Assembly (NCBI GenBank): GCA_903927465.1
Contig: CAIYMY010000121.1
Coordinates: forward strand, 1 to 35,530
DNA length: 35,530 nt
Direction: 5' to 3'
Source of the DNA: an uncultured Rhodospirillales bacterium
GTDB lineage: Bacteria > Pseudomonadota > Alphaproteobacteria > Acetobacterales > Acetobacteraceae
Both the position numbers and the translations under genes were made by a program. The stretch's first letter is position 1; each line of letters starts with the position of its first letter. A model generated the notes under the pieces. It searched no databases. It was not told the DNA's origin and saw only the letters and a list, made by a program, of their open reading frames with translations. Below, piece by piece: positions 3,692-32,685 of this stretch.

Positions 3692-3850
3692 ATGTTCACT
3701 TCCCAAGAAATTCTTTTGCCTGAAGAAGTTTTTTTTGCCTCACCTTCGCCGGAGGATTTCAACGTATCATACATTATTACTAATAAAGTATTTATGTCTG
3801 GCGCTGCTGAAGAAGCACCATCGGCGAAGGTTGCAGAGGCATTCCCATGA
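3692..3850 (+). CDS. Small 52-residue protein translationally coupled to the RTX gene
   Basis: An ATG preceded by AGGAG with 6-bp spacing opens a 52-codon frame, whose product starts MFTSQEILLPEEVFFASPSP and ends SAKVAEAFP. Its TGA stop overlaps the ATG of the RTX gene in the arrangement ATGA. The ribosome binding site here is better than most in the window, and the stop/start overlap is the usual sign of translational coupling. The product is acidic in its first half and Ala-rich at the end, with no signal peptide, membrane segment or cysteine. I do not recognise a family. It could be a leader that controls RTX translation or a small partner such as a secretion helper; both are guesses. Its coding DNA is more AT-rich than the genes around it. 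Confidence 0.6.
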   Translation: MFTSQEILLPEEVFFASPSPEDFNVSYIITNKVFMSGAAEEAPSAKVAEAFP

Positions 3851-6381
3851 GTGGCTCCGCCCTACCGATAGGTACGGATGGTAATGATTTCCTCTCCGCG
3901 CCAGGCATCACGGATGATAGTCTTTTTGGGCAGGCAGGGAATGATACGCTGCTTGGCTTTGGCGGTGTGGATCAGCTTTCAGGTGGCGCGGGAAACGACT
4001 ACCTCGATGGCGGCGATCTGGCCGATATCCTGCAAGGTGATGCGGGTGATGACACGCTGCTTGGCGGTAATGGCCTAGATTTTCTTTTTGCCGATAGCCC
4101 AACCGACACCACCGGCGACAATGCCGCTTCACGCAATCTGTTGCGCGGAGAAGCGGGGGTTGATGTTCTGCTCGGCGCAATTGGGCGTGACACGCTTGAT
4201 GGTGGCGATGGCCAGGATGTCTTGAGTGGCGGCGGCGGCGCGGATTGGCTGCTTGGCGGCAATGATGCCGATAGTTTCCTGATTGATTTTTCGATAGATT
4301 CCTCTTTCACCAGTAATTTCCTGGCTGCAGATACTATCGCCGATTTCTCCCGCACGCAGGGGGATGCCATTTCCTTCGGCCTCAGCAATGGTGTGCTGCA
4401 GGGCGCCTTGGGACCGGCACCGCTGATCTGGCGCGGCGCATTGCAGACCAGTGGCGGGCCTCTTCCAGGGCTTGCGCTGCCCGGCGCTGAGTTGGGCTTG
4501 GGCTATCTGCAAGCCTGGTACATTCCGGCAGCAAGCACGGATACAATGCCGGGCGGATGGATCACCATTGATCTCGACCAGGACGATGTACTTAGCACCT
4601 CCGATCCTTTGATCCGCCTGGTGACATCAACATTTGCGCCAGAAAGTATCTATTCCTGGGTGGTTGCGGGCAGCTTCGCCGGCATGGCCGGCACGGCGAA
4701 TGACGATGCCATTTCGGCCATTTCATCGGGGTCAAGATTATTCGGCCTGGGCGGCGCCGATCTGCTGCTTGGTGAGGCCGCCGCAGATTGGCTCTCTGGC
4801 GGGGCTGGCGCTGACACGCTTTCCGGTCTTGGCGCCGCGGATCAGCTTTGGGGAGGTGCCGGGGATGATTGGCTATATGGCGGAAATGGCGATGATGCCC
4901 TTTACGCCGATGGCCCGACACTTGATGACGTGGATGCTCCGGACGCAGCAAATCTGCTGGATGGTGATGCCGGGAATGATTCCCTCTTTGGCGGGGCTGG
5001 TTTGGATCGGCTGCTGGGCGGCAATGATGCCGACTTCCTTTATGGCTCCGATGGCGCCGATGTGTTGGATGGCGGCGCAGGGAATGACTGGCTGATCGGC
5101 GGCGATGGTGGCGATAGCCTGGTCGGCGGCACTGGGACCGACACGCTTGATGGCGGCGGCGGCGATGATCGCCTTCTGCTGCAAGACGCCACGGATTGGC
5201 TGGATGGTGGTGATGGGTATGACTGGCTCATTCTCTCTACAGGGCTTTCCATTGATCTCGGGCTGACCGAAAATCAGGTCGCCAATGGCGCCTGGATTGC
5301 GGGTTTCGAAGCCGTGGATGCCAGGAATGCCGGCGCCGCCATGACAATACTTGGCGGCTATGAGGCGAATTACATTTTTGGCGGTTCGGGCAGCGATAGC
5401 CTGACCGGCAATGACGGCGATGATTATCTGCAAGGCGGCGCGGGCAACGACACAATGGCCGGTGGCCTTGGGCAGAATATTCTTGAAGCTGGGCTCGGCA
5501 ATGATGTCTTCCTGGTGGAAAGCACGGATGACCTGCTGGTGGAAAATGCAGGGCAAGGTGCCGATACCGTCTACGCCAGCATTGACTTCTATCTGCCTTC
5601 CGAAATCGAGACGCTTGTCCTTTCATCCACCGTTTCCGCGCTACGCGGCATCGGGAATGAGGGAGATAACCTTCTGATCGGCAATGCGCTGGGCAATGAG
5701 CTTTCAGGTGGGGGGGGCAATGACACCGTCCAGGGCGGGGTGGGTGATGACACGCTGCAAGGCGATGCCGGGGATGATCTTCTGATCGGCGGCGAGGGGA
5801 CAGGCGATTTGGTCAGCTATGCCAGCTTGTCCGAATTCGGCCAGAACGTCGTGGTCAACCTGACCAGTTCGTGGGCGACGGGCGCCGCAGGCAGCGATTT
5901 CTTGCAAGGTATCGAGCATGTGCTGACCGGTGCTGGCGATGACCAGCTTTTTGGCAATGCCGCCGCGAACTACCTCTCAGCCGGATCGGGTAGGGATGAG
6001 CTGCGGGGCGAAACCGGCGCTGACACTCTGGATGGCGGCGAAGGGGATGACACGCTCTATGGCGGCGAAGGCGCCGATTCCATGGCGGGCAGCACCGGAA
6101 ATGACCTCTATTCTCAGATCGACTCGCAGGACCTGATCGTTGAATTCCCCGGAGGCGGTCAAGATACCATCATCACTTCAGCCAATATCACCATGCCGGC
6201 CGATGTTGAGGTGCTGCTCATTGCCGAAGGCGTAAGCGGCCTTACTCTTGTTGCCGGGCCAACCGGGGTAATGATGGTCGGCAATGGCCTCAGCCAAAAC
6301 TTCCAGGGTGGCGCGGGGGATGACGTGATCCTTGCAGGCGGTGGTAGTCTCGCCGATATACTGACGCTCTTCAACATTTGA
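3847..6381 (+). CDS. RTX (hemolysin-type calcium-binding repeat) protein
   Basis: An 844-residue acidic protein made largely of glycine/aspartate nonapeptides of the GGxGxDxLx type, for example GGAGNDYLD and GGEGDDTLY. They occur in blocks at about residues 10-150 and 285-460 and in shorter groups to the end. In RTX proteins such repeats bind calcium and fold as a beta-roll after export. A non-repeat segment at about 150-280 includes DTIADFSRTQGDAISF, a common companion of RTX blocks, and two later stretches contain the YASL...VVVNL...GIEHVLTGAGDD type element. No catalytic domain is recognisable and there is no N-terminal signal peptide. The last residues, DDVIL..GGGSLADILTLFNI, are shared in pattern with the second RTX protein and probably form the type I secretion signal. 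A GAGG ribosome binding site lies 7 bp upstream inside the coupled small gene. No HlyB/HlyD/TolC-like genes are in the window. Confidence 0.9.
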   Translation: MSGSALPIGTDGNDFLSAPGITDDSLFGQAGNDTLLGFGGVDQLSGGAGNDYLDGGDLADILQGDAGDDTLLGGNGLDFLFADSPTDTTGDNAASRNLLRGEAGVDVLLGAIGRDTLDGGDGQDVLSGGGGADWLLGGNDADSFLIDFSIDSSFTSNFLAADTIADFSRTQGDAISFGLSNGVLQGALGPAPLIWRGALQTSGGPLPGLALPGAELGLGYLQAWYIPAASTDTMPGGWITIDLDQDDVLSTSDPLIRLVTSTFAPESIYSWVVAGSFAGMAGTANDDAISAISSGSRLFGLGGADLLLGEAAADWLSGGAGADTLSGLGAADQLWGGAGDDWLYGGNGDDALYADGPTLDDVDAPDAANLLDGDAGNDSLFGGAGLDRLLGGNDADFLYGSDGADVLDGGAGNDWLIGGDGGDSLVGGTGTDTLDGGGGDDRLLLQDATDWLDGGDGYDWLILSTGLSIDLGLTENQVANGAWIAGFEAVDARNAGAAMTILGGYEANYIFGGSGSDSLTGNDGDDYLQGGAGNDTMAGGLGQNILEAGLGNDVFLVESTDDLLVENAGQGADTVYASIDFYLPSEIETLVLSSTVSALRGIGNEGDNLLIGNALGNELSGGGGNDTVQGGVGDDTLQGDAGDDLLIGGEGTGDLVSYASLSEFGQNVVVNLTSSWATGAAGSDFLQGIEHVLTGAGDDQLFGNAAANYLSAGSGRDELRGETGADTLDGGEGDDTLYGGEGADSMAGSTGNDLYSQIDSQDLIVEFPGGGQDTIITSANITMPADVEVLLIAEGVSGLTLVAGPTGVMMVGNGLSQNFQGGAGDDVILAGGGSLADILTLFNI

Positions 6382-19541: not shown

Positions 19542-21989
19542 CTAATTATTGAACAGCGCCATGATGTCAGCGACGGTGACGTTACCGATCAAGATCACAT
19601 CATCGCCACCCCCACCATCAATGAATTGATCTTCGCCGGTCCCGACGCGGATCGTATCATTCCCGCCATCGCCGTAGAGCAACTGACCAGTGCCGTTCCC
19701 GCCCTGCAGGCTATCGGCATCGGCGCCGCCATAAAGGGGCTGATAGTTGCCCCCGCCCGCGACCAGCGTGTCATTCCCTGCATCGCCAATAAGGAACTGA
19801 TAAGCTCCGGTCCCGCCCTGCAGGCTATCGGCTTCGGCGCCTCCATAGAGCTGCTGATTGTTACCCCCGCCCGCGACCAGCGTGTCATTGCCGACATCGC
19901 CAGAGAGCTCCTGAGCAGTGCCGTTTCCGCCTTGCAGGCTATCGGCACCGTCGCCGCCATAAAGGTCCTGACCGTAGCCCACGCCTGCGACCAGCGTGTC
20001 ATTCCCGACGTCGCCATATAGGCGCTGATAGTCGCCCCCGCCCGCAACCAGCGTGTCATTGCCGGCATCGCCATAGAGATACTGATTAGAACCGTTCCCG
20101 CCCTGCAGGCTATCGGCATCGTTGCCGCCATAGAGAACCTGACTGTTGCCCCCACGCGCGACCAGCGTGTCATTCCCGGCATCGCCATAGAGACCCTGGT
20201 CATCGACTTTCCCGCCTAGCAGGCTGTCATTACCGTCGCCGCCAGATAGACCCTGATTGATGCCCGCACCCGCGACCAACGTGTCATTGCCGGCGTCGCC
20301 ATCGAGTTGCTGATCAGAGCCGCTCCCGCCCTGCAGGCTATCGGCATCGGCGCCGCCATAAAGGGACTGTAAGTAGCCTCCGCCTGCGACCAGCGTGTCA
20401 TTCCCGGCATCGCCAGAGAGGTGCTGATAATTGCCGTTCCCGCCCTGCAGGCTGTCATTCCCGGCATCGCCATAAAGGTCCTGAAGGTCGCCCCCGCCCG
20501 CAAACATCGTGTCATTCCCAGCATCGCCAGAGAGGTACTGATCAGCGCCGTTCCCGCCCAACAGTCTATCGTCACCGTCGCCGGCCTCGAGACGCTGACC
20601 TTCGCCCCCGCCCGCGATCAGCGTGTCATTCCCGGCAACGTCATAGAGATGCTGAAATTTGCCGCTCCCGCCCTGAAGGCTATCATCATCGGCGCCACTG
20701 AAAAGGCGCTGATAATCGCCTCCACCCGCGACCAGCGTGTCATTCCCCGCTTCGCCAAAGAAGTCCTGACCGTAGCCATCGCCCTGCAGGCTATCGGCAT
20801 CGGCGCCGCCATAGAGGTCCTGACCGTAGCCAACGCCCGCGACCAGCGTGTCATTCCCGGCTTCGCCTAGCAGCGAATCTCTGTTGCCATTGTCCGCGAT
20901 CAGGCTGTCATCACCATTGCCGCCGACCAGCGTGTCATCGTCAGCACCACCGCTGAGCGTGTCGTTGCCAGCACCGCCGGTGAGCCTGTCATTGCCGTTG
21001 CCACCATCAAGGTAGTCATTATTGGTGCTGCCCTGCAGGCTGTCATGACCGTTGCCGCCACCGAGGTACTGACCAAAGCCAACGCCCGCGACCAGCGTGT
21101 CATTCCCGGCTTCGCCATAGATTTCCTGAGTAACGCCGATCCCGCCCAGCAGGCTATCGGCACCGTCGCCGCCAGAAAGGTCCTGACCGTAGCCCCCGCC
21201 CGCGACCAGCGTGTCATTCCCGGCTTCGCCATAGAGGCGCTGAAAAGCCCCGTTCCCGCCCAGCAGTCTATCGGCATAACTACCGCCAAGGATGTTTTCA
21301 ATCCCGGTCAGACTGTCATTGCCCGCCGCGCCGGATGACGTGCCCGCGCCAAGATTAACCGTGACTGCGCCCGTGGCAGAGGCATAGCTCGCCCAATCGG
21401 TGCCATCGGCACCGACCAGCGTGTCATTGCCGACGCCGCCGCTGAGCGTGTCATTGCCATTGCCACCATCGAGGCTGTCGATGTTGGTGCCGCCCTGCAG
21501 GCTGTCATTACCGTTGCCGCCAAGGAGCGACGGAAAGTAGCCAACGCCTGCGACCAGCGTGTCATCCCCGGCATGGCCAGACAGGTACTGATAAGCGCCG
21601 CTCCCGCCCTGCAGGCTATCGGCACCGTCGCCGCCAAGGAGCTGCTGAGCGAAGCCCCCGCCCGCGACCAGCGTGTCATTCCCGGCTTCGCCATAAAGAT
21701 ACTGCGCAGAGCCGTTTTCGCCCCGCAGGCTATCGGCACCGTCACCGCCATAGAGGCGCTGTACGCCGCCCCCGCCCGCGATCAGCGTGTCATTCCCGGC
21801 TTCGCCATAAAGGTACTGATCAGCGCCGTACCCACCTATCAGACGATCGGCACCGGTGCCACCATCGAGGTATTGAGAGTCGCCACCCGCGACCATCGTG
21901 TCATTCCCAGCAAGACCAAAAAGCGAATCGCCCGCATTCGACTGAAGAGACAGATGATTATCTGCGGCGTTACCGTAAACGGCTGACAT
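19542..21989 (-). CDS. Highly repetitive RTX calcium-binding protein
   Basis: From the ATG at 21989 (an upstream TTG at 22043 is also in frame) this encodes 815 residues, starting [18 protein letters not shown] without a signal peptide. Almost the whole length is RTX-like repeat. Canonical nonapeptides (GGNGNDTLS) occur only in two short zones. The rest alternates [18 protein letters not shown] and [17 protein letters not shown], so each 19-residue half ends in Gln-x-Leu and two halves make a 38-residue super-repeat, seen about twenty times as GNDT units. One non-repeat insert ([18 protein letters not shown]...GIENILGG) is a common RTX companion. The C terminus, [24 protein letters not shown], shares its pattern with the other RTX protein and is the likely type I secretion signal. 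The role is probably an extracellular or surface structural protein; no enzymatic domain is visible. Confidence 0.88.
19650..21960 (-). repeat. In-gene tandem repeat, ~114-bp unit (two 57-bp halves)
   Basis: The coding DNA of the RTX gene carries near-identical blocks about 114 bp apart. On the plus strand the segment around GACCAGCGTGTCATTCCCGG recurs about twenty times, and CTGCAGGCTATCGGC recurs at the intervening half-unit. Similarity at DNA level, not just protein level, points to recent unit duplication or gene conversion, and the array should be prone to copy-number change. Confidence 0.85.
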
Positions 21990-23731: not shown

Positions 23732-23836
23732 GAGCATTTTCAAGCCAAGTGGAAACACTTGGCGACTCGGAAAATGCGACCAAACAAGCGCTTAGAGCGA
23801 TTCCGGTGAACGAACGTGAACGGAAACCGCTCTAAG
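23732..23836 (-). repeat. Two-hairpin repeat element, copy A
   Basis: Read on the minus strand, hairpin 1 has arms CTTAGAGCG and CGCTCTAAG (23828-23836 and 23791-23799) with an inner TTCCG/CGGAA pairing, and loop TTCACGTTCGTTCA. A 13-base spacer follows. Hairpin 2 then has outer arms GCATTTTC/GAAAATGC and inner arms GCCAAGTG/CACTTGGC around a 4-base loop. The same organisation and the same hairpin 1 loop recur in copies B and C. Hairpin 1 supplies the last 14 codons and the stop of the M20 gene. Confidence 0.85.
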
Positions 23837-25108
23837 CCCACACCAGTCAGTGATGAAGGTAGCGATGGTGCGCGTGCATTTGCGCAAATCCTCGATCGAG
23901 GTCCGCTCATCAAAGGCATGCGCCCCCTCTCCCTTCGGGCCATAGCAAAGCCCGGGGATATCGAAGTAAAGCCCGTAATAGCGCGTGTCATTCACCGCCG
24001 TTGTGCGGCGTTCCGGCAGGCTGCCGCCATGGACCGAGGCATGGGCGGCGGCGAGCACGGCCTCCGCCTCACTGCCTGGCTCAAGCACATAGGGGTCGGT
24101 CTGAAAGCCGGTCCAGACGATTTCGGGCGGGTTATTTGCGAGAAAGCCATCGCCCTTGGCAGTGGCGCGCACCAAAGCTTCGATCCCGGCCATGGCTTCT
24201 TCCGGTGTGGTTCCAGGAACCAGGCCGATGCGGCAATCCACCTCACACCAGGCGGGGGTGGAAGATGCCCAGTCACCGCCGCGAATAATGCCGGGGTTGA
24301 ATTTGATCGGGTCCTTGATGTCAGCATACCAGGTGCTGGCACGCGCGGCTTCATTCAATTTGCGGGTGTGTTCATACAGCGCCTGGATCAGCACATAGGC
24401 CGACATGATGGCATTGCTGCCATCTTGCGCGACCGCAACATGCACCGGAATGCCGCGCACGCGTAGCCGAAACCAGATGGTGCCGGTTTGGCTGCGGGTA
24501 ATGGTATGGCCCGTGGGTTCCGGCACCAGCGCGGCATCCGCGCGATAACCACGCAACAGCGTGGAAAGTGCGCCATTGCCGGTGCTTTCTTCCTCGGTCA
24601 CCGTTTCCACATAGACATCGGCGGCGGGTTCAAACCCGGCATCGCGAATGGCATCCATGGCATAAACCATGCAAGCCACGCCGGATTTCATGTCATGCGC
24701 GCCGCGGCCATACATCCAGCCATCGCGGATCACGGCAGCATAGGGCGGATGGGTCCACATATCGGCGGGGCCTTCGGGCACAACATCAATATGCCCTTGT
24801 AGGATCAGGCTGCGCCCGGTTGGATTTTTGGCGCGATAGGCCGCCACCACCTGCACGCTGCCGGCCGGATCACATTCCACCATCGGCGCCATTTTGGGAT
24901 GCTGCGGCACATCGGCCAAAGTGTAGCGATCCACCGCATAGCCACGCGCGGCCATTTGGCGGGCAAACCAATCCTGCAAGGGCGCTTCCCGGCCGCGCAG
25001 GCTTGGAAAGCGCACCAATTCCGCCAGGAACTGCACTTGCTTGTCGAAATTCGCGTCTATGGCGGCGGCAATGCGCGCCATGGCTTCCTTATCGGCCATG
25101 CTGATCAT
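23792..25108 (-). CDS. M20 family zinc amidohydrolase (ArgE/DapE-like deacylase or peptidase)
   Basis: A 438-residue cytoplasmic metallohydrolase that cleaves an amide bond in acylated amino acids or small peptides. The di-zinc ligands and catalytic residues are visible: His and Asp in LQGHIDVVPEG, bridging Asp in GRGAHDMKSGVACMVYAMDA, the Glu pair in ETVTEEESTGNG, a carboxylate in ALVPEPTGH and the last His in GPKGEGAHAFDE. A dimerisation domain lies between about 205 and 320. It begins 30 bp after the stop of an oligopeptide-type binding protein, suggesting that it processes an imported peptide or acyl amino acid. The final 14 residues (LRAVSVHVRSPESL) and the stop codon are encoded by repeat element A and are probably not ancestral. 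ArgE, DapE or a carboxypeptidase role cannot be separated by sequence alone. Confidence 0.9.
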   Translation of the reverse strand: MISMADKEAMARIAAAIDANFDKQVQFLAELVRFPSLRGREAPLQDWFARQMAARGYAVDRYTLADVPQHPKMAPMVECDPAGSVQVVAAYRAKNPTGRSLILQGHIDVVPEGPADMWTHPPYAAVIRDGWMYGRGAHDMKSGVACMVYAMDAIRDAGFEPAADVYVETVTEEESTGNGALSTLLRGYRADAALVPEPTGHTITRSQTGTIWFRLRVRGIPVHVAVAQDGSNAIMSAYVLIQALYEHTRKLNEAARASTWYADIKDPIKFNPGIIRGGDWASSTPAWCEVDCRIGLVPGTTPEEAMAGIEALVRATAKGDGFLANNPPEIVWTGFQTDPYVLEPGSEAEAVLAAAHASVHGGSLPERRTTAVNDTRYYGLYFDIPGLCYGPKGEGAHAFDERTSIEDLRKCTRTIATFITDWCGLRAVSVHVRSPESL

Positions 25109-25138
25109 TCTTTCCTGTTCAAGGGTCTCATGCTGCGT

Positions 25139-26707
25139 TCAGGGCGGGCTCGCGAGCAGCGCATTGGTGTACCAGGAAGGCGAGGCATCATACTTCACCT
25201 TATTCCTGAGCCCCGCCCAGGAAACTTTCAGATAGAAGATCGGAATGACGCCAGTGTCTTCGATACCGATCCGCATCGCCTCAGCCGTCAGCGCATTGCG
25301 CCGCGTAGTGTCCATGGTGCGCAAAGCCTCCGCCAAGGGCGCATCCATCGCCGGGTTTGAGTAATGCTGACGATTGAAGGGGCCGGCACCGGTTTCGCTG
25401 TTTCGTGTCATCAATACCTGGCGCAGCGTATTGGCCGCGATGGAGGAGGTATAGGTGGTCATGAACATCGAAAACTCTCGCGCAGTGGCGCGGGTGAACA
25501 GATTAGCGGGCGGCAGGACCTCGACACGGGTTTCAATGCCAAGCCGTGTCCAACCCTGCGCGATGGCCTGCGCCACATCTGTATCCGATGCGAACCAGCC
25601 ATTGGGGCTATGCAGCGTGATACGAAAGCCATCCGGATAACCCGCTTCACGGAGCAAGGCGCGCGCCTGATCCAAATCATAGCGCGGGGGTGGCATATTG
25701 GGCGCGCGGTCGGCCACGGCGGGGGCCGCGAATTGTTCCGCCGGCATGCCCTGGCCCATCAGCAACCGGTCCACAATGCCCTGGCGATTAATGGCAAGGG
25801 AGAGGGCGCGGCGCACCCGCGCATCACGCAAGGGGTTACGTTCAAGAACGCGGCCCTGCTTGTCAGTCACGAAGGGTGATGGATCACGCACTGCATCGGG
25901 GAAAAGATAGGCGGTACCATTGCTCGCGACACCAAAGACCGAAAGCCGGGCATCATTGGAAAGGCGCTGCACATCCTGCACCGGCACGAAATCAATCAAA
26001 TCTACATCGCCCGAAAGCAGCGTGGCCACACGCGCCCCAGGATTGCTGATGAAGCGCGTTACCACCCTTTCCCAGGGCTGCGCTTCCCCCCAATAGCCAG
26101 GGTTGCGCGTGATTTCATGCCGCTCACCCATCGTATAGCTGACATGGCGATAGGCGCCGGTGCCGATCATGGCGCGGCCTGCATTGAAATCGCCCAAAGT
26201 CGCATTGGCATGCAGGTTGCGGGACAGGATCATGATGTTGGAAAGGTCCCAATCCAGGAAAGGGTTGGGTTCTTTGGTCCTGATCACGATGCGACGCGGT
26301 TCCGGGATTTCGATGGCGGCGATGCTGCGCACAAAGGGCGTGAAGGGGCCGGGGCTATTGGTAATGGTCGGCACGCGCGCATAGGAAAAGGCAATATCCT
26401 CAGCGGTCAGCGGCGTGCCGTCGTGGAATTTAATGCCCTCGCGCAGCTTGAATTCCCAAGTCAGGTCATCAATGGCGCGCCAGGATTCCGCGAGCCGCGG
26501 GATAAGCCGCCCGGAAGTGTCGAAATCCACCAGGGTTTCAAAAATCTGCCGCAAAACCGCGTTATTGGGGTTGGAGGAATGATAGTGCGGATCCATCCCC
26601 GATGGTGCGCCTTGCGCACCGATGGTGAGGGTGCGCTGCGCCTGAGAGGGCGCCGCGCACAACAGCAACGCGCCGGCCGCCAGCATCAGCGTTCTGAAAA
26701 ATCCCAT
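25139..26707 (-). CDS. Family 5 (oligopeptide/dipeptide) ABC transporter binding protein
   Basis: A 522-residue periplasmic binding protein with signal peptide FFRTLMLAAGALLLCAAPSQAQ. SBP_bac_5 features are ALRTLTIG-like N terminus (RTLTIGAQGAPSGMDPHYHS), LAESWRAIDDLTWEFKLREG, IKFHDGTPLTAEDIAFSYAR, NPFLDWDLSNIMILS and LSLAINRQGIVDRLL. The ATG at 26707 is preferred over a GTG 6 bp upstream because GGGGGTG lies 5 bp before the ATG. No permease or ATPase genes accompany it; the next gene is the M20 hydrolase 30 bp downstream. The ligand could be peptides, but family members also bind nickel, glutathione or sugars. Confidence 0.9.
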   Translation of the reverse strand: MGFFRTLMLAAGALLLCAAPSQAQRTLTIGAQGAPSGMDPHYHSSNPNNAVLRQIFETLVDFDTSGRLIPRLAESWRAIDDLTWEFKLREGIKFHDGTPLTAEDIAFSYARVPTITNSPGPFTPFVRSIAAIEIPEPRRIVIRTKEPNPFLDWDLSNIMILSRNLHANATLGDFNAGRAMIGTGAYRHVSYTMGERHEITRNPGYWGEAQPWERVVTRFISNPGARVATLLSGDVDLIDFVPVQDVQRLSNDARLSVFGVASNGTAYLFPDAVRDPSPFVTDKQGRVLERNPLRDARVRRALSLAINRQGIVDRLLMGQGMPAEQFAAPAVADRAPNMPPPRYDLDQARALLREAGYPDGFRITLHSPNGWFASDTDVAQAIAQGWTRLGIETRVEVLPPANLFTRATAREFSMFMTTYTSSIAANTLRQVLMTRNSETGAGPFNRQHYSNPAMDAPLAEALRTMDTTRRNALTAEAMRIGIEDTGVIPIFYLKVSWAGLRNKVKYDASPSWYTNALLASPP

Positions 26708-26713
26708 CGCCAC

Positions 26714-26984
26714 ACCCCCAAAGGTTTATGAAGCGATAACGTCACCCTTCATGCGGACGCGGTCAAGCAGCAAAAGCGCAGATGCCTCGACCCGCCCAAG
26801 CTCAGGTCTCGGTGCCTTTTTAAGGGGAATTTCACCCTTGCCTGATTAGAATGCAAGCCGCTCCAATCACAGGCCTGGTTTGCTTCAATGTTCTCTGCAC
26901 CTTCGTCGCCCAATGAAATTGCTTGTCGCTCACGCGGCGTGGCGGGTCATTCTTGTTTAGGACATTTGGCGTAGGAATTCCACC
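26714..26984. other. Divergent intergenic region before the soluble hybrid kinase
   Basis: This 271-bp gap separates the minus-strand binding-protein gene from the plus-strand kinase gene and should contain both promoters. I see no confident promoter pair or structured element. AGGAATTCC lies just before the kinase ATG and serves as its ribosome binding site. Confidence 0.4.
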
Positions 26985-29381
26985 ATGACGATAGCCCTGC
27001 CCATACACCCAGAAGCCGCACCCTTGTCCGGTTCGGAAGGGCGCGCCTGGCTGGAATGGAATGCAGATACGGATAAGCTGCACCTTTCCAGCGCTGCACT
27101 GCGCCTTCTTCAGTTGGCAGATTCCATTCTGCCGCAAAGCGAGATCGCATTTGGCGAATTTTTTGACATACCCAATCGGAACAAGTTGGCCATCGCCTTC
27201 GAAGAAATACTGACGCAGGAAGGACCAGTTTCAGTTGAATTGCTGCACCAGACATCCGCAGGTACGCAGGTCCTACTATTTCGTGGAGAATTGGACAGAT
27301 CGCGTGAAGGCCGGATTGTGGTCGCAAGCCTTGAAGACGTCACGCATGGCAGTGAAGGGCATCAGCAAATCGCCGCGAAGAAGCGGTTTGAGACCTTTGT
27401 CAGCCTGATTCAAAAAGACCCTGCCTATTTCGATTCAGTCCCGCTTGGACTCATGATAGTCAATGCTGGCTTCATCGCCCAGGCAAATCCCAAACTCACC
27501 GAAATTCTCTCAATCCGCACCGGAAGCCTGATTGGTGAACCGGTGTCGCGTATCCTGTCCGCCAAACAAAGCTATGATTACTACATGGAATCCGTTTGGG
27601 GTGAGCCAACCGAAGACAGCCAAGAATTTGTCGAAGCCGAATTTGAAAATGACGATGGCGCGCTGATATGGCTTCGGGTCAGCGTCTCACGCATTTGTAC
27701 CGCAGGTTCGGAAAATTCCTGCCTTTGCGTCATTGAAGACATTACAGCGCGTAAGAAGCTTGAACAAGATGTATGGACCGGATTGGCGGACACCCTCTCC
27801 GCCAAGGAAGCAACTGACACTGCAAGTCGCATAAAGAGCGAATTTCTCGCCATGGTCAGTCATGAAATCCGTACACCGCTTTCCGCGGTGATCGGCATGC
27901 AAAAGCTAGCCTTGCGCGACCCAACGCTTAAGGGGAAAACCCGGCAGCATCTTGATATGGCGCAGACCAATGCAGAATTTCTGCTGGAACTGCTGAATGA
28001 CATCCTGGATTTCTCCAAGATAGAGGCCGGCAAGCTGCTACTTGAATCAGTGGATTTTTCGCTGCGGCATCTCATCACCGAAAGTAGCGGCCTGCTGATG
28101 GAACGGGCCGCCACGAAGAATATCTCGCTGACGATAGATACTGAAGCTGCGGTTCCGGATACGCTGGTCGGCGACCCGGCGCGCGTCAAGCAAATCCTGA
28201 TCAACCTGATAGGGAATGGTATCAAATTCACGGATAAGGGGGGTGTGGCGCTACGCGTTCAGCTTGAAAGTAGTGTTGCGGATGTAAAAAATATCCGCTT
28301 TGAAGTTGCAGATACCGGCATCGGCATTTCACGCGATGCGCAGGGGCAGCTCTTTCAGAAATTCGCACAGGGCGATATTTCAACAACACGGCGCTTCGGC
28401 GGTACGGGTCTCGGCCTTGCCATTTGCAAACAGCTTGTGGAGTTGATGCAGGGTGAAATCAGTCTGAAGAGTGATCTTGGTAAGGGAAGCTGCTTCAGCT
28501 TCGTGGTCCCATTCAAAATCGGCTCGGCGCCCGCCAATATCCTGCCAGTCACCCTGGCGCCGCATTCCCACCAGTTGAATATCTTGTGCGCTGAGGATTT
28601 CCCCCCGAACCAAATCATTATCCAGGGCTTGCTGGATGAAATGGGGCATCGGGTGGAGTTCGCCGACAATGGCCGCAAGGCATTGGAAGCCCTGGCACTC
28701 CGCAGCTATGATGTCATTCTGATGGATGGGCGGATGCCTGAAATGGATGGCGCAACCACCATCCGCCTGATCCGTTCTGAAGGTGATGGGCAATTTTATA
28801 TCCCTGACCCCAAAATCCGCATCATTATGCTAACCGCGAATGCAGGCGATGAAAGCCGGCAATTCTATATCGCCAGCGGGGCCGATGATTTTTTGGTCAA
28901 GCCAATTGATGAGACCTTGTTGCACCAAAGCCTGGCGCGGGTGATTGAAGCGCGCCTCACGGAAAGGGCATCGCTGCTGCCAATCTTGCGCCATGATAAA
29001 CAAGAATTGGAAAAGCTGTTCGGTGTGGCGGCGCTGGGTGTGGCCGATGTCACGCAAATCATGCCGACCGCGCCCGTTGAAAATCCTCAGGAGGAAAACG
29101 GGAGCCTAAGGGAACGGCTGCGACAGGCCCTGCGTGCAGATCTCGCCGCTCGGCGTAAGACGCTTGATGAAGCCTATACCACACGGGATATGCAGACACT
29201 CGCCAGTCTCTTTCACAGCCTCAAGGGAAGCGCTGGTTACATCTGGCCAGGGGAGGCGCTGCAAGGCATGAGCGCGCTTCTTGAACAAGCGGCTGACCGC
29301 GAAGATTGGCACACCATAGAAAGAGAAATGCCGGGGTTCCTCGACATACTGAACGACATAGCAAAAGGGACCATCTCATGA
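26985..29381 (+). CDS. Soluble hybrid histidine kinase with PAS, REC and HPt domains
   Basis: A 798-residue kinase without membrane helices, so it senses a cytoplasmic cue. Two PAS-like regions are visible: about 20-120 ([20 protein letters not shown]) and 140-260 ([20 protein letters not shown] ... [15 protein letters not shown]). HisKA follows with His293 in [16 protein letters not shown]. The HATPase has [21 protein letters not shown] and [16 protein letters not shown]. The receiver has Asp581 in [14 protein letters not shown], with an unusual start [11 protein letters not shown] where most have AEDNxxN. The C-terminal HPt has His744 in [12 protein letters not shown]. All relay residues are present. 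Its stop overlaps the start of a response regulator gene (ATGA), its obvious partner. Confidence 0.93.
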
Positions 29382-30133
29382 GAGCGCTTGTGGTTGATGA
29401 TGATGTGGTTTCGCGCATGGCCCTTGCCGATCTTATGCGCAGCTTCATCGAATTGAAGGTGGTTGAAGCGGTGGATGGCCAGGATGCCTGGGAACAGATG
29501 GAAATGGGGCCGGCCCCTATGATCTGTTGCTGCGATGTCCAAATGCCGCGGCTTTCCGGTATTGGCTTGCTGAAGCGCGTGCGTTCTTCGCCGCGCTTCA
29601 AGGATATTCCCTTCGTATTGGTTACTGCCGCGGCCGATCTTGAAACCGTGAAGCAGGCGGTAACGCTTGGCATCAGCCACTACATCATCAAGCCATTTCA
29701 TGCGCGGGAAGCGCGGGGTTCCCTGCAAAAAATCCTCAACGCCGCCTGGGAGAGGATTGCAGAACCACCCCCCGCAACGCTTAACCGGCTGAATATCGCG
29801 CCCGACCAGTTGATGACTTACCTGTATTCACTGCGAGGCCAATGCGCAGTTTTTGCGCGTGACCTCAGGCGGTCCAAAAACCTTCAGGATGTGCAGGATG
29901 TTGTCGGGCGGCTGAAGGGCTTGCATACGGGCTGCCTCACCCTTGGGCTGCATTACGCGGCCGATTTGGTTTTGCATCTGCGTGACGAAGATTCGGAAAT
30001 CGAACGTGTCGAACAGGCGCTGATCGAAATCGAATTGGCCATTTCATCGCAGGAAGAACGGGTCAAGGCGCGCCATAGTCTTGCCACTGGCGGCGCCATC
30101 AAACGGACCTCCATGGGCGGCGCCTCGGCTTGA
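29378..30133 (+). CDS. Response regulator with receiver domain and a histidine-less HPt-like C-terminal region
   Basis: A 251-residue protein. The receiver (1-125) has acidic residues Asp7-Asp9 in VVDDDVVSR, phospho-acceptor Asp53 in CCCDVQMPRLSG, Thr83 in VLVTAAAD and Lys105 in YIIKPFHARE, so it should be phosphorylated. Residues 140-230 are helical. GRLKGLHTGCLTLGLHYAAD there resembles the HPt core H-x-L-K-G-...-LG, but the position of the phospho-histidine (residue 177) is Gly. No DNA-binding or enzymatic output domain is present. It overlaps the soluble hybrid kinase gene, whose HPt domain is the probable phosphate donor. Inference: the degenerate domain may bind a partner protein instead of passing phosphate. 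Confidence 0.85.
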   Translation: MRALVVDDDVVSRMALADLMRSFIELKVVEAVDGQDAWEQMEMGPAPMICCCDVQMPRLSGIGLLKRVRSSPRFKDIPFVLVTAAADLETVKQAVTLGISHYIIKPFHAREARGSLQKILNAAWERIAEPPPATLNRLNIAPDQLMTYLYSLRGQCAVFARDLRRSKNLQDVQDVVGRLKGLHTGCLTLGLHYAADLVLHLRDEDSEIERVEQALIEIELAISSQEERVKARHSLATGGAIKRTSMGGASA

Positions 30134-30196
30134 TCGCCTCTGGCCGCTTTCCCCAAGGGGTTGCTCTGTGCTTTGGTGTGGTTGCAGGAGCAAACC

Positions 30197-31288
30197 ATGC
30201 CAAACGCCGAATCGCCCAGGCCCTCACCCACGCGCCATACGCAAACCGCCATGCTCGCCGAAAGGGCTGCGGTTTTGTTGCTGCTGGCACTTTTGCTCTA
30301 CGGCGTGATCCGCGTTCTGGAACCCTTTGGTCTCGCTATCGCTTTTGGTGGCTTCATCGTCATTGGCACCTGGCCACTAAGGCAGGCGATGGTCAGCCGC
30401 GGGATCCCCCGCGGCATCGCCGCGACGCTCATGCTGCTGGTGCTGATCCTATCCGTCGCCGTTCCGGCGCTTGCGCTGACCCCTGAATTGGGTGGGCAGA
30501 TTGCGCATGCCGGAAAGGTGGCGCGTGAACTTCTGGCCGGTCTGCCAGAGGCAGCGCCAGCTTGGCTTGCGGGGTTGCCATTGGTCGGTGGGATAGCCAG
30601 CGATTGGTGGCCGCAATTGCTGCATTGGCAAGGTGATTTCGGGGCCCTTCTGGCGCCCTATACCGGGCGTATCACCAGCCTTTTGGTGGATATCGGTCAG
30701 GCGGCGGCCGCAAGCGTGGTGCAAATCCTGCTCTCGCTGATTGTTGCCACTGCCTTTTGGGTCAGCGGCGATAAGCTCGGCGATCAGGTGACGGACATTG
30801 CCGGGCGCTTGGCAGGCGAGACGGGCCGCAATGCGGTGATCGCCGCTGAAGGTGCAGTGCGCGGTGTGGCCTGGGGCATTGTCGGCACTGGCATCATCCA
30901 GGCGATGTTGATGGGTATTGGCCTTGCCATTGCAGGCGTGCCCGGGGCTGGCGTGATTTCCTTCCTGACCCTAATTTTTTCCATCAGCCAGGTGCTTGGA
31001 CCGCTGGTGGTGGTGGCCTGGCTTGGCGCGGCGGCTTGGCTCTACAGCGAAGGCCACCTTGCCTGGGCGATTTTCATGGGGCTTTGGGGGCTGATCATGG
31101 TCTCGGGTAGCGATAACATCATTCGTCCCTTGCTGATCAAGCGCAGCAGCGCCATGCCGCTCTCGCTCATTATTCTCGGTGTCTTTGGCGGGCTGATCGC
31201 CTTTGGCTTCCTTGGGCTTTTCATTGGACCTGCCTTGCTCGCCGTAGCGCATGGGCTGCTCAAGGCATGGCGCAGCGCTGAAAGCTGA
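30197..31288 (+). CDS. AI-2E family (PerM/TqsA-like) membrane transporter
   Basis: A 363-residue inner-membrane protein of the AI-2E family. The ATG has AGGAG 6 bp upstream. There are about eight hydrophobic segments, beginning with AAVLLLLALLLYGVIRVLEPF. The family signatures are GIVGTGIIQAMLMGIGLAIAG and SGSDNIIRPLLIKRSSAMPL, followed by LIILGVFGGLIAFGFLGLFIGP. Members export small molecules or exchange ions (TqsA for autoinducer-2, others Na+/H+ antiport); the substrate cannot be inferred. It stands 63 bp after the response regulator and could share its transcript. Confidence 0.9.
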   Translation: MPNAESPRPSPTRHTQTAMLAERAAVLLLLALLLYGVIRVLEPFGLAIAFGGFIVIGTWPLRQAMVSRGIPRGIAATLMLLVLILSVAVPALALTPELGGQIAHAGKVARELLAGLPEAAPAWLAGLPLVGGIASDWWPQLLHWQGDFGALLAPYTGRITSLLVDIGQAAAASVVQILLSLIVATAFWVSGDKLGDQVTDIAGRLAGETGRNAVIAAEGAVRGVAWGIVGTGIIQAMLMGIGLAIAGVPGAGVISFLTLIFSISQVLGPLVVVAWLGAAAWLYSEGHLAWAIFMGLWGLIMVSGSDNIIRPLLIKRSSAMPLSLIILGVFGGLIAFGFLGLFIGPALLAVAHGLLKAWRSAES

Positions 31289-31358
31289 AGCCCGCGGGGC
31301 TGGCAAAGCCCGCATCCCGCGTTATGACTAACTTGACGACAGGGCAGGAGAGACCCGC

Positions 31359-32432
31359 ATGGCCACACGCAAGCATCGTATCGCCGTCATCCCCGGGGAT
31401 GGCATTGGCAAGGAAACCACGCCTGAAGGGCTTCGCGTGCTGGATGCCGCGGCGCGGCGCTTCGGTTTTGAACTGGAACTGACGCATTACGATTGGTCCT
31501 GCGAAACCTACACCAAGACCGGCAAGATGATGCCGGATGACGGCATGGATCGCTTGAAGGACAGCGACAGCATCTTCCTGGGCGCCGTGGGCTGGCCCGG
31601 CGTGCCGGATCATGTCTCGCTCTGGGGGTTGCTGATCCCCATCCGCCGTGGCTTTGACCAATATGTGAATCTGCGCCCCTGCCGGCTGTTGCCGGGGGCG
31701 ACTACGCCGCTCGCCAATCGTGGCCCCAAGGATATTGATTTCATTGTGGTGCGCGAGAATACGGAAGGCGAGTATTCCTCAAGCGGCGGGCGCATGTTTG
31801 TGGGCACGGACCGCGAATTCGTCTCCCAGGAAAGCGTCTTTACGCGCATCGGTGTGGATCGCGTGCTGCGCTACGCCTTTGAATTGGCCAAGACCAGGCC
31901 GCGCAAAAAGGTGACGAGTGCCACAAAATCCAACGGCATCACCTTCACCATGCCCTATTGGGATGAACGCTTTGCCGAAATGGCAAAGAATTATCCCGGC
32001 ATCACCACAGACCAATTCCATATTGACATCCTCTGCGCCCATTTCGTGCAGCATCCGGATTGGTTTGATGTGGTGGTAGGGTCGAATTTGTTCGGCGATA
32101 TCCTTTCAGACCTTGGGCCGGCGGTGGCGGGTTCGATTGGCATTGCGGCGAGCGCCAATATCAATCCCGAAAAGCGCTTCCCTTCCATGTTCGAACCCGT
32201 GCATGGCAGCGCGCCGGATATTGCGGGCAAGTTCATCTGCAACCCGATCGGGCAGATCTGGTCGGGTGCGATCATGCTGGAACACCTTGGTGAAAAACCG
32301 GCGGCTGATGCGATCCTGGCGGTGATTGAAAAGCTGCTGGCGGAAGGTGGCCCGCGCACGCGCGATATGGGTGGGCAGGCCGGCACGGTGGATGTCGGTC
32401 GCGCCATCGCTGAAGCCGTAGCAAAATTCTGA
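31359..32432 (+). CDS. Tartrate/D-malate/isopropylmalate-type dehydrogenase (TtuC-like)
   Basis: A 357-residue NAD-dependent beta-decarboxylating dehydrogenase of the isocitrate/isopropylmalate family. Diagnostic parts are IAVIPGDGIGKETTPEGLRV, IFLGAVGWPGVPDHVSLWG, LLIPIRRGFDQYVNLRPCRL (substrate arginines), VVRENTEGEYSSSGG, the metal-binding Asp cluster in GSNLFGDILSDLGPAVAGS and the NAD site FEPVHGSAPDIAGK. The run GWPGVPDHVSLWGLLIPIRR is typical of TtuC/DmlA rather than LeuB, so (R,R)-tartrate or D-malate is the likelier substrate. A GCAGGAG motif precedes the ATG. Repeat element B begins 5 bp after the stop codon. No leuC/leuD genes are nearby, which also argues against leucine biosynthesis. 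Confidence 0.9.
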   Translation: MATRKHRIAVIPGDGIGKETTPEGLRVLDAAARRFGFELELTHYDWSCETYTKTGKMMPDDGMDRLKDSDSIFLGAVGWPGVPDHVSLWGLLIPIRRGFDQYVNLRPCRLLPGATTPLANRGPKDIDFIVVRENTEGEYSSSGGRMFVGTDREFVSQESVFTRIGVDRVLRYAFELAKTRPRKKVTSATKSNGITFTMPYWDERFAEMAKNYPGITTDQFHIDILCAHFVQHPDWFDVVVGSNLFGDILSDLGPAVAGSIGIAASANINPEKRFPSMFEPVHGSAPDIAGKFICNPIGQIWSGAIMLEHLGEKPAADAILAVIEKLLAEGGPRTRDMGGQAGTVDVGRAIAEAVAKF

Positions 32433-32436
32433 TCAG

Positions 32437-32535
32437 CTAGTGCGCGTCCCATTCACATTCGTTCAGCGGGCGCGCACTAAGTTTTTTGTGATTGTATTTT
32501 CCGAGTCGCCAAGTAATTTCACTTGGCTAAAAATG
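32437..32535 (+). repeat. Two-hairpin repeat element, copy B
   Basis: Hairpin 1: TAGTGCGCG (32438-32446) pairs with CGCGCACTA (32471-32479), with CCC/GGG inside and loop containing TTCACATTCGTTCA. After a 14-base T-rich spacer, hairpin 2 has inner arms GCCAAGT and ACTTGGC (32508-32514, 32521-32527) and weak outer ATTTT/AAAAT pairing. The hairpin 2 left flank (TTTTCCGAGTCGCCAAGT) is identical to copy A over 18 bases, whereas the hairpin 1 stem differs from A on both sides yet stays paired. Confidence 0.85.
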
Positions 32536-32580
32536 ACCTAGGGCCTGTTGAGGAGCGCCTTGGGCGTAAGACCGCGGCCG

Positions 32581-32685
32581 CTAGAGCGTGTTGCGTTCAC
32601 ATGGGTTCACGCAACCCACTCTACATTGTTGTTTTTCGAGCATCTTCACACGTTCAGATGATTCCATCTGAACGTGATCTGCTCT
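32581..32685 (+). repeat. Two-hairpin repeat element, copy C
   Basis: Hairpin 1: TAGAG/CTCTA outer arms and GTTGCGT/ACGCAAC inner arms (32590-32596, 32609-32615), with TTCACATGGGTTCA spanning the loop. After a 13-base T-rich spacer (starting CATTGTTG), hairpin 2 has outer arms GAGCA/TGCTC and a perfect 12-bp inner stem CACGTTCAGATG/CATCTGAACGTG around ATTC. Compared with copies A and B the inner stem of hairpin 2 is completely different but perfectly complementary. The element ends 9 bp before the start codon of the following small gene. Confidence 0.82.

Follow-up and report, generated by a model that had tools for sequence, protein, structure and literature searches.

The 35,530-nucleotide stretch analysed here, referred to as the window, is the complete contig CAIYMY010000121.1 of assembly GCA_903927465.1, derived from an uncultured Rhodospirillales bacterium of the family Acetobacteraceae whose genome, the host genome in what follows, comprises 3.78 Mb in 220 contigs. 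It carries three repeat elements, designated A, B and C, which share the plan hairpin 1, linker, hairpin 2. These elements belong to a real, abundant and mobile family, a two-palindrome variant of an already known kind of repeat, and at other copies of one subtype an insertion sequence (IS) of the IS110 family has entered at a single point. The relevant features of the window are listed below.

23732..23834, minus strand: element A, type I, TAGAGC...GCTC (model positions 5-107; empty sites in relatives)
23793..23834, minus strand: hairpin 1 of A, loop TTCACGTTCGTTCA
23778..23792, minus strand: linker of A
23734..23777, minus strand: hairpin 2 of A, type I
32438..32539, plus strand: element B, type I (covariance model match)
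32438..32479, plus strand: hairpin 1 of B, loop TTCACATTCGTTCA
32495..32537, plus strand: hairpin 2 of B, type I, outer stem decayed in part
32582..32684, plus strand: element C, type II (model match, type II alignment)
32582..32623, plus strand: hairpin 1 of C, loop TTCACATGGGTTCA
32638..32684, plus strand: hairpin 2 of C, type II, clamp GAGCA/TGCTC with a 12-bp inner stem
32676..32683, plus strand: GATCTGCT of C, the IS110-family insertion point in other type II copies
23792..25108, minus strand: peptidase M20 gene (open reading frame, Pfam), its last 12 residues and stop codon lying in element A
31359-32432, plus strand: isocitrate/isopropylmalate dehydrogenase gene; element B starts 5 bases past its stop codon

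A preliminary description of the window had reported the three elements with their coordinates, loops and stems, all of which hold in the sequence, and had proposed that they form a family of structured repeats. The predicted folds of A, B and C surpass dinucleotide shuffles on both strands (6/6; z -4.6 to -8.0, with 0 of 200 shuffles equal), and nothing in the window matched Rfam at gathering score. A BLAST search of the host genome with element A gave at least 56 matches at E<=10 (best 40 of 151 candidates scored). Alignment A1, with 29 rows, combines 28 host-genome copies (A included) with B and does not include C; of 30 loci considered, two that lacked hairpin 1 or had a different one were excluded. 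The covariance model built from it, R1, scores A at 124 bits, B at 87 and C at 44, and returned at least 143 type I matches in the host genome at E<=10 (best 150 of 1143 candidates scored), a set that takes in some tandem or solo hairpin-2 units. A second model, R2, built from an alignment of C and six similar elements, identified 18 strong full-length type II copies (E<=1.8e-22) and at least 59 matches at E<=0.001, many of them type I (best 150 of 420 candidates scored in both cases). The absence of further copies had been named beforehand as the outcome that would speak against a family; A, B and C are instead three of more than 100 family copies in the host genome. The family comprises two subtypes with a like hairpin-1 loop and an unlike hairpin 2, A and B being type I and C type II. 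Hairpin 2 of C, which the preliminary description had set apart, does differ from that of A and B, but it is characteristic of the second subtype rather than a one-off. Ten low-scoring model matches were removed by hand before the counts of placement, gene ends, left ends, GANTC sites, arms and mispairs, and dinucleotides given below.

The modules of the element also occur in other arrangements. In the host genome, tandem linker-plus-hairpin-2 units without further hairpin 1 are found at G000:C39:47410-47754, G000:C63:4354-4536 and elsewhere, with a spacing of about 57 and 64 bp. At three host-genome loci (L269, L284 and L294), a different palindrome replaces hairpin 1 while the linker and hairpin 2 are kept, in line with what a mosaic element would show. 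One orthologous element, in the relative G008, contains an additional linker-plus-hairpin-2 unit at its site.

Mobility was assessed from empty sites in related genomes. Most relatives lack an element at the A site, and one relative (L160, L263) has A at the same place. The match to peptidase M20 in close relatives stops at residue 425 or 426 of 438, which indicates that the last 12 residues and the stop codon of the host gene were supplied by the insertion of A. The flanks of 24 host-genome elements were joined and then searched in three relatives. In the loci examined, an element-free site could be aligned over the junction for 19 of the 24; in 14 of these cases, at least one relative showed no gap within 5 columns of the junction, while the other aligned empty sites consist of three with one extra base in the relative and two with extra bases in the host genome. 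Such precise alignments imply a net insertion of about 103 bp without a long target duplication. No duplication exceeds 2 bp, and the insertion length is compatible with a 2-bp duplication too.

The left end of the element reads Y-TAG-AGC, with T or C before TAG in 68 of 74 copies. On the left, 51/74 type I copies have the dinucleotide TA; on the right, the dinucleotide is TA in 13, CA in 13 and CG in 12 of 74. Left and right are equal in 16/74, against 10.8 expected, a weak excess reached by 1% of shuffles. Type II copies have TA on the left in 17/18 and on the right in 11 of the 14 uninterrupted copies. A TA target duplication, which was the first reading of the empty sites, is unsafe for type I by the 74-copy count, and type II allows it. 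These figures bear on the possibility that the family is a classical miniature inverted-repeat transposable element, bounded by GAGC...GCTC and moved by an IS630/mariner-type transposase with TA duplication, the right TA having been mutated away in many type I copies. The type II dinucleotides, the type I excess of equal pairs and an insertion length that would be the same as for a 103-bp element without duplication are all consistent with this account. However, the disparity between right and left TA in type I copies argues against it, as do several type I empty sites in relatives that show CA or another dinucleotide, and the host genome contains just two fragments of an IS630-type DDE_3 transposase, with neither TAGAGC nor GCTCTA at the two loci. 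Taken together, we regard this origin as possible but unlikely. An IS200/IS605 or REP-associated tyrosine transposase (RAYT) origin, considered because no long duplication was seen, was rejected, Y1_Tnp being absent from the genus genomes searched.

Genes were called with a purpose-made simple hexamer gene caller, and 115 distinct copies were placed relative to them: 2 lie inside genes, 61 in tandem gaps, 27 in convergent gaps, 7 in divergent gaps, and 18 at contig edges are unclassed. Convergent gaps are enriched (27/95, compared with 8/96 among gaps of 20 bp or more that hold no element; p 0.0003), and in tandem gaps 44 of 61 elements are closer to the end of the upstream gene. The copies thus cluster at gene 3' ends. 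The element's own TAG forms the gene end in 12 of the 37 gene ends lying within 30 bp of the hairpin-1 end, and its last bases hold 13 of the 33 gene ends near the other end; part of this coincidence is automatic, since an insertion that removes a stop codon leaves the element to supply the next one. Orientation relative to tandem genes is even, with 29 copies on the same and 32 on the opposite strand. At the dehydrogenase gene, relatives (L250, L251, L254, L257 and L265) carry a strong terminator-like hairpin with a T run 3' of the gene; in the window (32433-32580), B occupies the place of this hairpin, which is missing.

Hairpin 1 covaries strongly among copies, as expected of the structured family proposed earlier. 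In A1, both sides changed in 11 of 15 hairpin-1 pairs, and the whole-structure covariation score was 0.180 compared with 0.078 in shuffles (0 of 500 as high; 0.046 or less with partners slid). Across 121 distinct host-genome rows, an alignment fitted to the model and including the 10 low-scoring rows, all 15 pairs changed on both sides, with a score of 0.283 against 0.103 (0.054 or less with partners slid). Once the low-scoring rows are set aside, 80 copies have hairpin 1; 76 of these hairpins are well formed and show 69 different 5' arms. Stem 1 has a mean pairwise identity of 0.56, compared with 0.89 for the hairpin-2 stems. With the flank pair excluded, hairpin-1 mispairs comprise 45 G.T and 69 A.C among 1061 cells, so that G.U is not tolerated above A.C; the slight excess of A.C (p 0.03, cells not being independent) would read as G.U on the opposite strand. 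Since G.U pairs should be tolerated in an RNA helix on the strand modelled, the lack of a G.U excess speaks against such a helix.

The preliminary description had attributed the changed but still paired stems to selection on structure or to palindrome correction. Resident copies do not bear this out. Seven elements are also present in close relatives, giving eight comparisons in which 15 hairpin-1 pairs differ; none of the 15 is a compensatory double change. In 11 only the host copy is paired, in 2 only the copy of the relative, and in 2 neither. Different lineages of copies appear to carry different pairs, and copies that stay in place decay.

Two explanations that place the origin of pairing in resident copies can be weighed against these results. 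The first is a selected RNA element, a structure in the 3' untranslated region that acts as terminator, mRNA stabiliser or small RNA and is kept by selection for pairing. Placement near the 3' ends of genes and in convergent gaps, stable folds and covariation of hairpin 1 all suit such an element, and repeats with transcriptional activity are described for Sinorhizobium meliloti in passages of PMC2873474. Nevertheless, the lack of a G.U excess, of an orientation bias to genes, of compensation in orthologues and of any Rfam match in the window makes it improbable. The second is templated palindrome correction, in which template switching between the arms renews stems in place and yields covariation. 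It would account for 69 distinct 5' arms in 76 hairpins and for stem identities of 0.56 compared with 0.89 in hairpin 2, but no corrected pair was found among the 15 altered pairs of the eight orthologous comparisons, a small set, and we assign this explanation a small probability as well. In the absence of compensation, G.U excess and orientation bias, the paired arms are best understood as a DNA palindrome that an element needs during spread and not as an RNA structure maintained in place; most simply, a copy must be paired in order to spread.

We therefore consider it probable that the elements are non-autonomous mobile DNA, consisting of two linked palindromes of about 103 bp and residing mostly at gene 3' ends. 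In this model, each element would insert as a complete unit as the family spreads in the genome, and its palindromes, together with the conserved loop of hairpin 1, would presumably be recognised as DNA during spread. Copies with paired arms would be the founders of new copies, which would produce covariation between copies without repair in place. Type II copies are additionally the landing site of an IS110-family element. Several observations weigh against this interpretation. Conservation is poor at q8, one of the 14 junctions without a gap, and the element limits used in the junction search were picked after five earlier cases. The orthologue test is small, 7 of its 15 altered pairs coming from one decayed copy; 3 of the 15 are the first pair, which involves a flanking base, and 2 are paired in the relative and unpaired in the host copy. 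Furthermore, Y1_Tnp was found in 0 of 15 genus genomes searched (2 of 7 others) and the IS630-type DDE_3 of the host genome consists of fragments, so that a mobilising enzyme was not found among these two families, other transposase families not having been searched. The family nonetheless provides a case for the old question of whether the stems of palindromic repeats are kept by selection on resident copies or are needed for spread alone. The second answer is favoured by the comparison of orthologues, which can be enlarged with public genomes.

The elements are also rich in GANTC, the methylation site of CcrM. The 84 full-length type I copies contain 92 such sites, compared with about 33 expected from Markov resampling, and the density is 9.9 per kb in elements versus 1.2 per kb in the window, a roughly 8-fold difference. 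The usual sites are model positions 71 (GAGTC) and 83 (GATTC); because these are present in just 24 and 32 of 84 copies, respectively, no methylation role is claimed for the elements. Elsewhere in the window, two large frames of RTX calcium-binding nonapeptide repeats (Pfam HemolysinCabind) occupy 3847-6381 and 19542-21989 on opposite strands.

Among the 18 strong type II copies of the host genome, four continue, beyond GATCTGCT or the corresponding bases, as one common sequence that reaches the contig end, with 136, 136, 125 and 14 bases available. Element C itself is uninterrupted, TGG being the flank after GCTC. When the 136-base stretch was used as a query against the genus, 9 of 35 genomes returned a total of 18 matches. 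Thirteen of the matching stretches were retrieved, 12 of them with upstream sequence; ten of these 12 sit at the same point of type II hairpin 2, and two (L409 and L410) lie directly after a type-I-like hairpin 2. One locus, L407, contains a 311-residue open frame with DEDD_Tnp_IS110 and Transposase_20 domains, and its closest solved relatives are ISCro4 and IS621. No single open frame is present in L403 and L406; no transposase match occurs within 3 kb in L404, L408, L409 and L410, or in the 813 bases available for L412. Right ends of the IS were found in four cases; all read GGATACTC, and TAG comes next in two of them.

The common sequence, or leader, contains four guide-like stretches in a fixed order: GATCTGCT, corresponding to the left half of the target; YTAGAG, the complement of CTCTAR in the right half of the target; CGGATAC, corresponding to the IS right end; and GACAAG, the complement of CTTGTC at the IS left end. 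The target-left and target-right stretches occur in 9 and 8 of 12 leaders, and the donor-left and donor-right stretches in 7 and 5 of 10, two leaders ending earlier. This layout is that described for the IS621 bridge RNA in passages of PMC11208160, and we infer that the leader may guide IS110-family insertion at the type II end. For two leaders, folding predictions did not surpass shuffles (z -1.2 and 0.4), and Rfam at gathering score returned only one tRNA across six IS loci.

Leaders at type II elements carry GATCTGCT in the first slot, and the L409 remnant at a type-I-like copy, otherwise alignable with the type II leaders, carries TGAAAATGCT in the same slot. In full, this slot reads GTGAAAATGCT, of which 10 bases are common with the type I end, a 10-mer found in 4 of 20000 shuffles of the leader. 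A change of guide is thus suggested, although some observations count against it: the L409 junction is decayed and mismatches its own guide, the L409 transposase is missing, and L410 and L408 fit neither guide exactly. That an IS110-family recombinase acting in trans mobilises the two-hairpin elements themselves is very improbable: despite guide-like matches to the ends of both subtypes and the lack of a long target duplication, guide matches are confined to the right end of the element, the leader occurs in 9 of 35 genus genomes compared with 33 of 35 for R1 matches, and the IS interrupts type II copies as it would a target.

Whether the two subtypes, which resemble Rhizobium-specific intergenic mosaic elements (RIME), act as dispersed landing pads beside genes for the IS110-family element, with a target guide of the bridge RNA that has changed in nature between subtypes, appears to us evenly poised. 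If true, spread of the repeats would keep supplying new, mostly harmless sites, which an RNA-guided recombinase would follow by guide change. Palindromic repeats would then be linked to RNA-guided IS110 recombination in such a way that the guide sequence predicts the repeat subtype hit, and this link between guide and target may point to further natural bridge-RNA targets.

The two-hairpin architecture is not confined to the host. Among 59 genomes searched with R1 at E<=0.001, matches occurred in 33 of the 35 genus members and in 2 of the 24 genomes that represent other families in the class, a patchy distribution in keeping with mobility. The linker pattern TTGTTTNGWCGCRTTTTC was found in 8 of 385 class genomes including that of the host, with the reversed control giving one hit in one genome, and in 17 of 199 genomes of one order, with up to 43 copies per genome and none for the control; these counts are lower bounds owing to exact matching. 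The most copies of any genome so searched, 55 exact matches, were observed in G406, a 1.9-Mb incomplete genome of another family. Many printed linker loci show a palindrome before the linker and, after it, a hairpin 2 ending GAAAATGCTC or GAAAACGCTC, and several lack one part or are divergent. Among plasmids, BLAST with element A gave 3 weak records and the form from genome G395 gave 8. Units could be read on named plasmids of Bradyrhizobium, Sinorhizobium fredii, Asticcacaulis and Novosphingobium, while records from Xanthobacter, Bosea and Methylobacterium are BLAST matches only. On a Bradyrhizobium barranii plasmid (L363, 1201-1310), a full-length unit is flanked on one side by the gene of an IS1380-family transposase and on the other by that of an integrase. 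The preliminary description had tied the elements to palindromic intergenic units of alphaproteobacteria, and the analysis supports this: they belong to a wider kind whose units often begin TAGAGC.

RIME is about 100 bp long and consists of two palindromes. By this definition, the present family resembles it in having two linker-joined palindromes, a length of about 100 bp and many intergenic copies, and a Sinorhizobium fredii plasmid carries a linker and hairpin 2 of like plan. It differs in its host, an Acetobacteraceae, and apparently in its hairpin-1 loop GTTCACNTNNGTTCAC and its hairpin-2 core. Because the architecture recurs in several alphaproteobacterial orders, the family is of the RIME-like kind, set beside RIME and Bru-RS by description. 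RIME itself (Osteras, Stanley, Finan 1995) is characterised as an intergenic, repeated, palindromic element of alphaproteobacteria in passages of PMC2245857, PMC2573895 and PMC2873474. Bru-RS1 and Bru-RS2 of Brucella (Halling and Bricker 1994), palindromic repeats of 103 and 106 bp that form two related kinds in one genus according to a passage of PMC10800456, are similar by description.

Repetitive extragenic palindromic (REP) sequences, BIME and REPIN, as outlined in part of PMC3733652, share with the present family dispersed short intergenic palindromes, mobile behaviour and, in some cases, two-palindrome units. In contrast to the REP/RAYT system, the ends here are TAGAGC and GCTC and not a GTAG or CGTC tag, and no Y1_Tnp, the transposase of that system, was detected in 15 genus genomes; repeats can, however, outlive a lost transposase. 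CGTC repeats are stated to be missing in Acetobacteraceae in the same portion of PMC3733652. Br-REP1 and Br-REP2 of Bradyrhizobium, according to a passage of PMC5082802, are likewise alphaproteobacterial palindromic repeats at 3' untranslated regions, but the consensus printed there is unlike the two-hairpin unit. In the open-access literature, the portions available of PMC2873474, PMC2245857, PMC5082802, PMC1273637, PMC2267715, PMC2573895, PMC2780559, PMC10800456, PMC3733652, PMC1525189, PMC11208160 and PMC11187229 contain no description of such an element in Acetobacteraceae, and a literature text search with four short element sequences gave nothing relevant among the matches listed.

The IS110-family element is comparable to two groups of known systems. 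With IS621 and ISCro4, as presented in parts of PMC11208160, it shares both IS110 domains, the core CT and the order of guides in the leader. With the IS110 elements that insert into REPs, namely ISPa11, ISPpu9, ISPpu10 and, in S. meliloti, ISRm19 (part of PMC1525189), it shares a single insertion point in a palindromic repeat. Since IS110 elements in REP-like repeats are already known, this kind of association is not new. The present system differs from known IS110 elements in that its target is the right end of a type II two-hairpin element and that one leader remnant carries the type I end; this target and the apparent change of guide seem, as far as we have searched, to be new.

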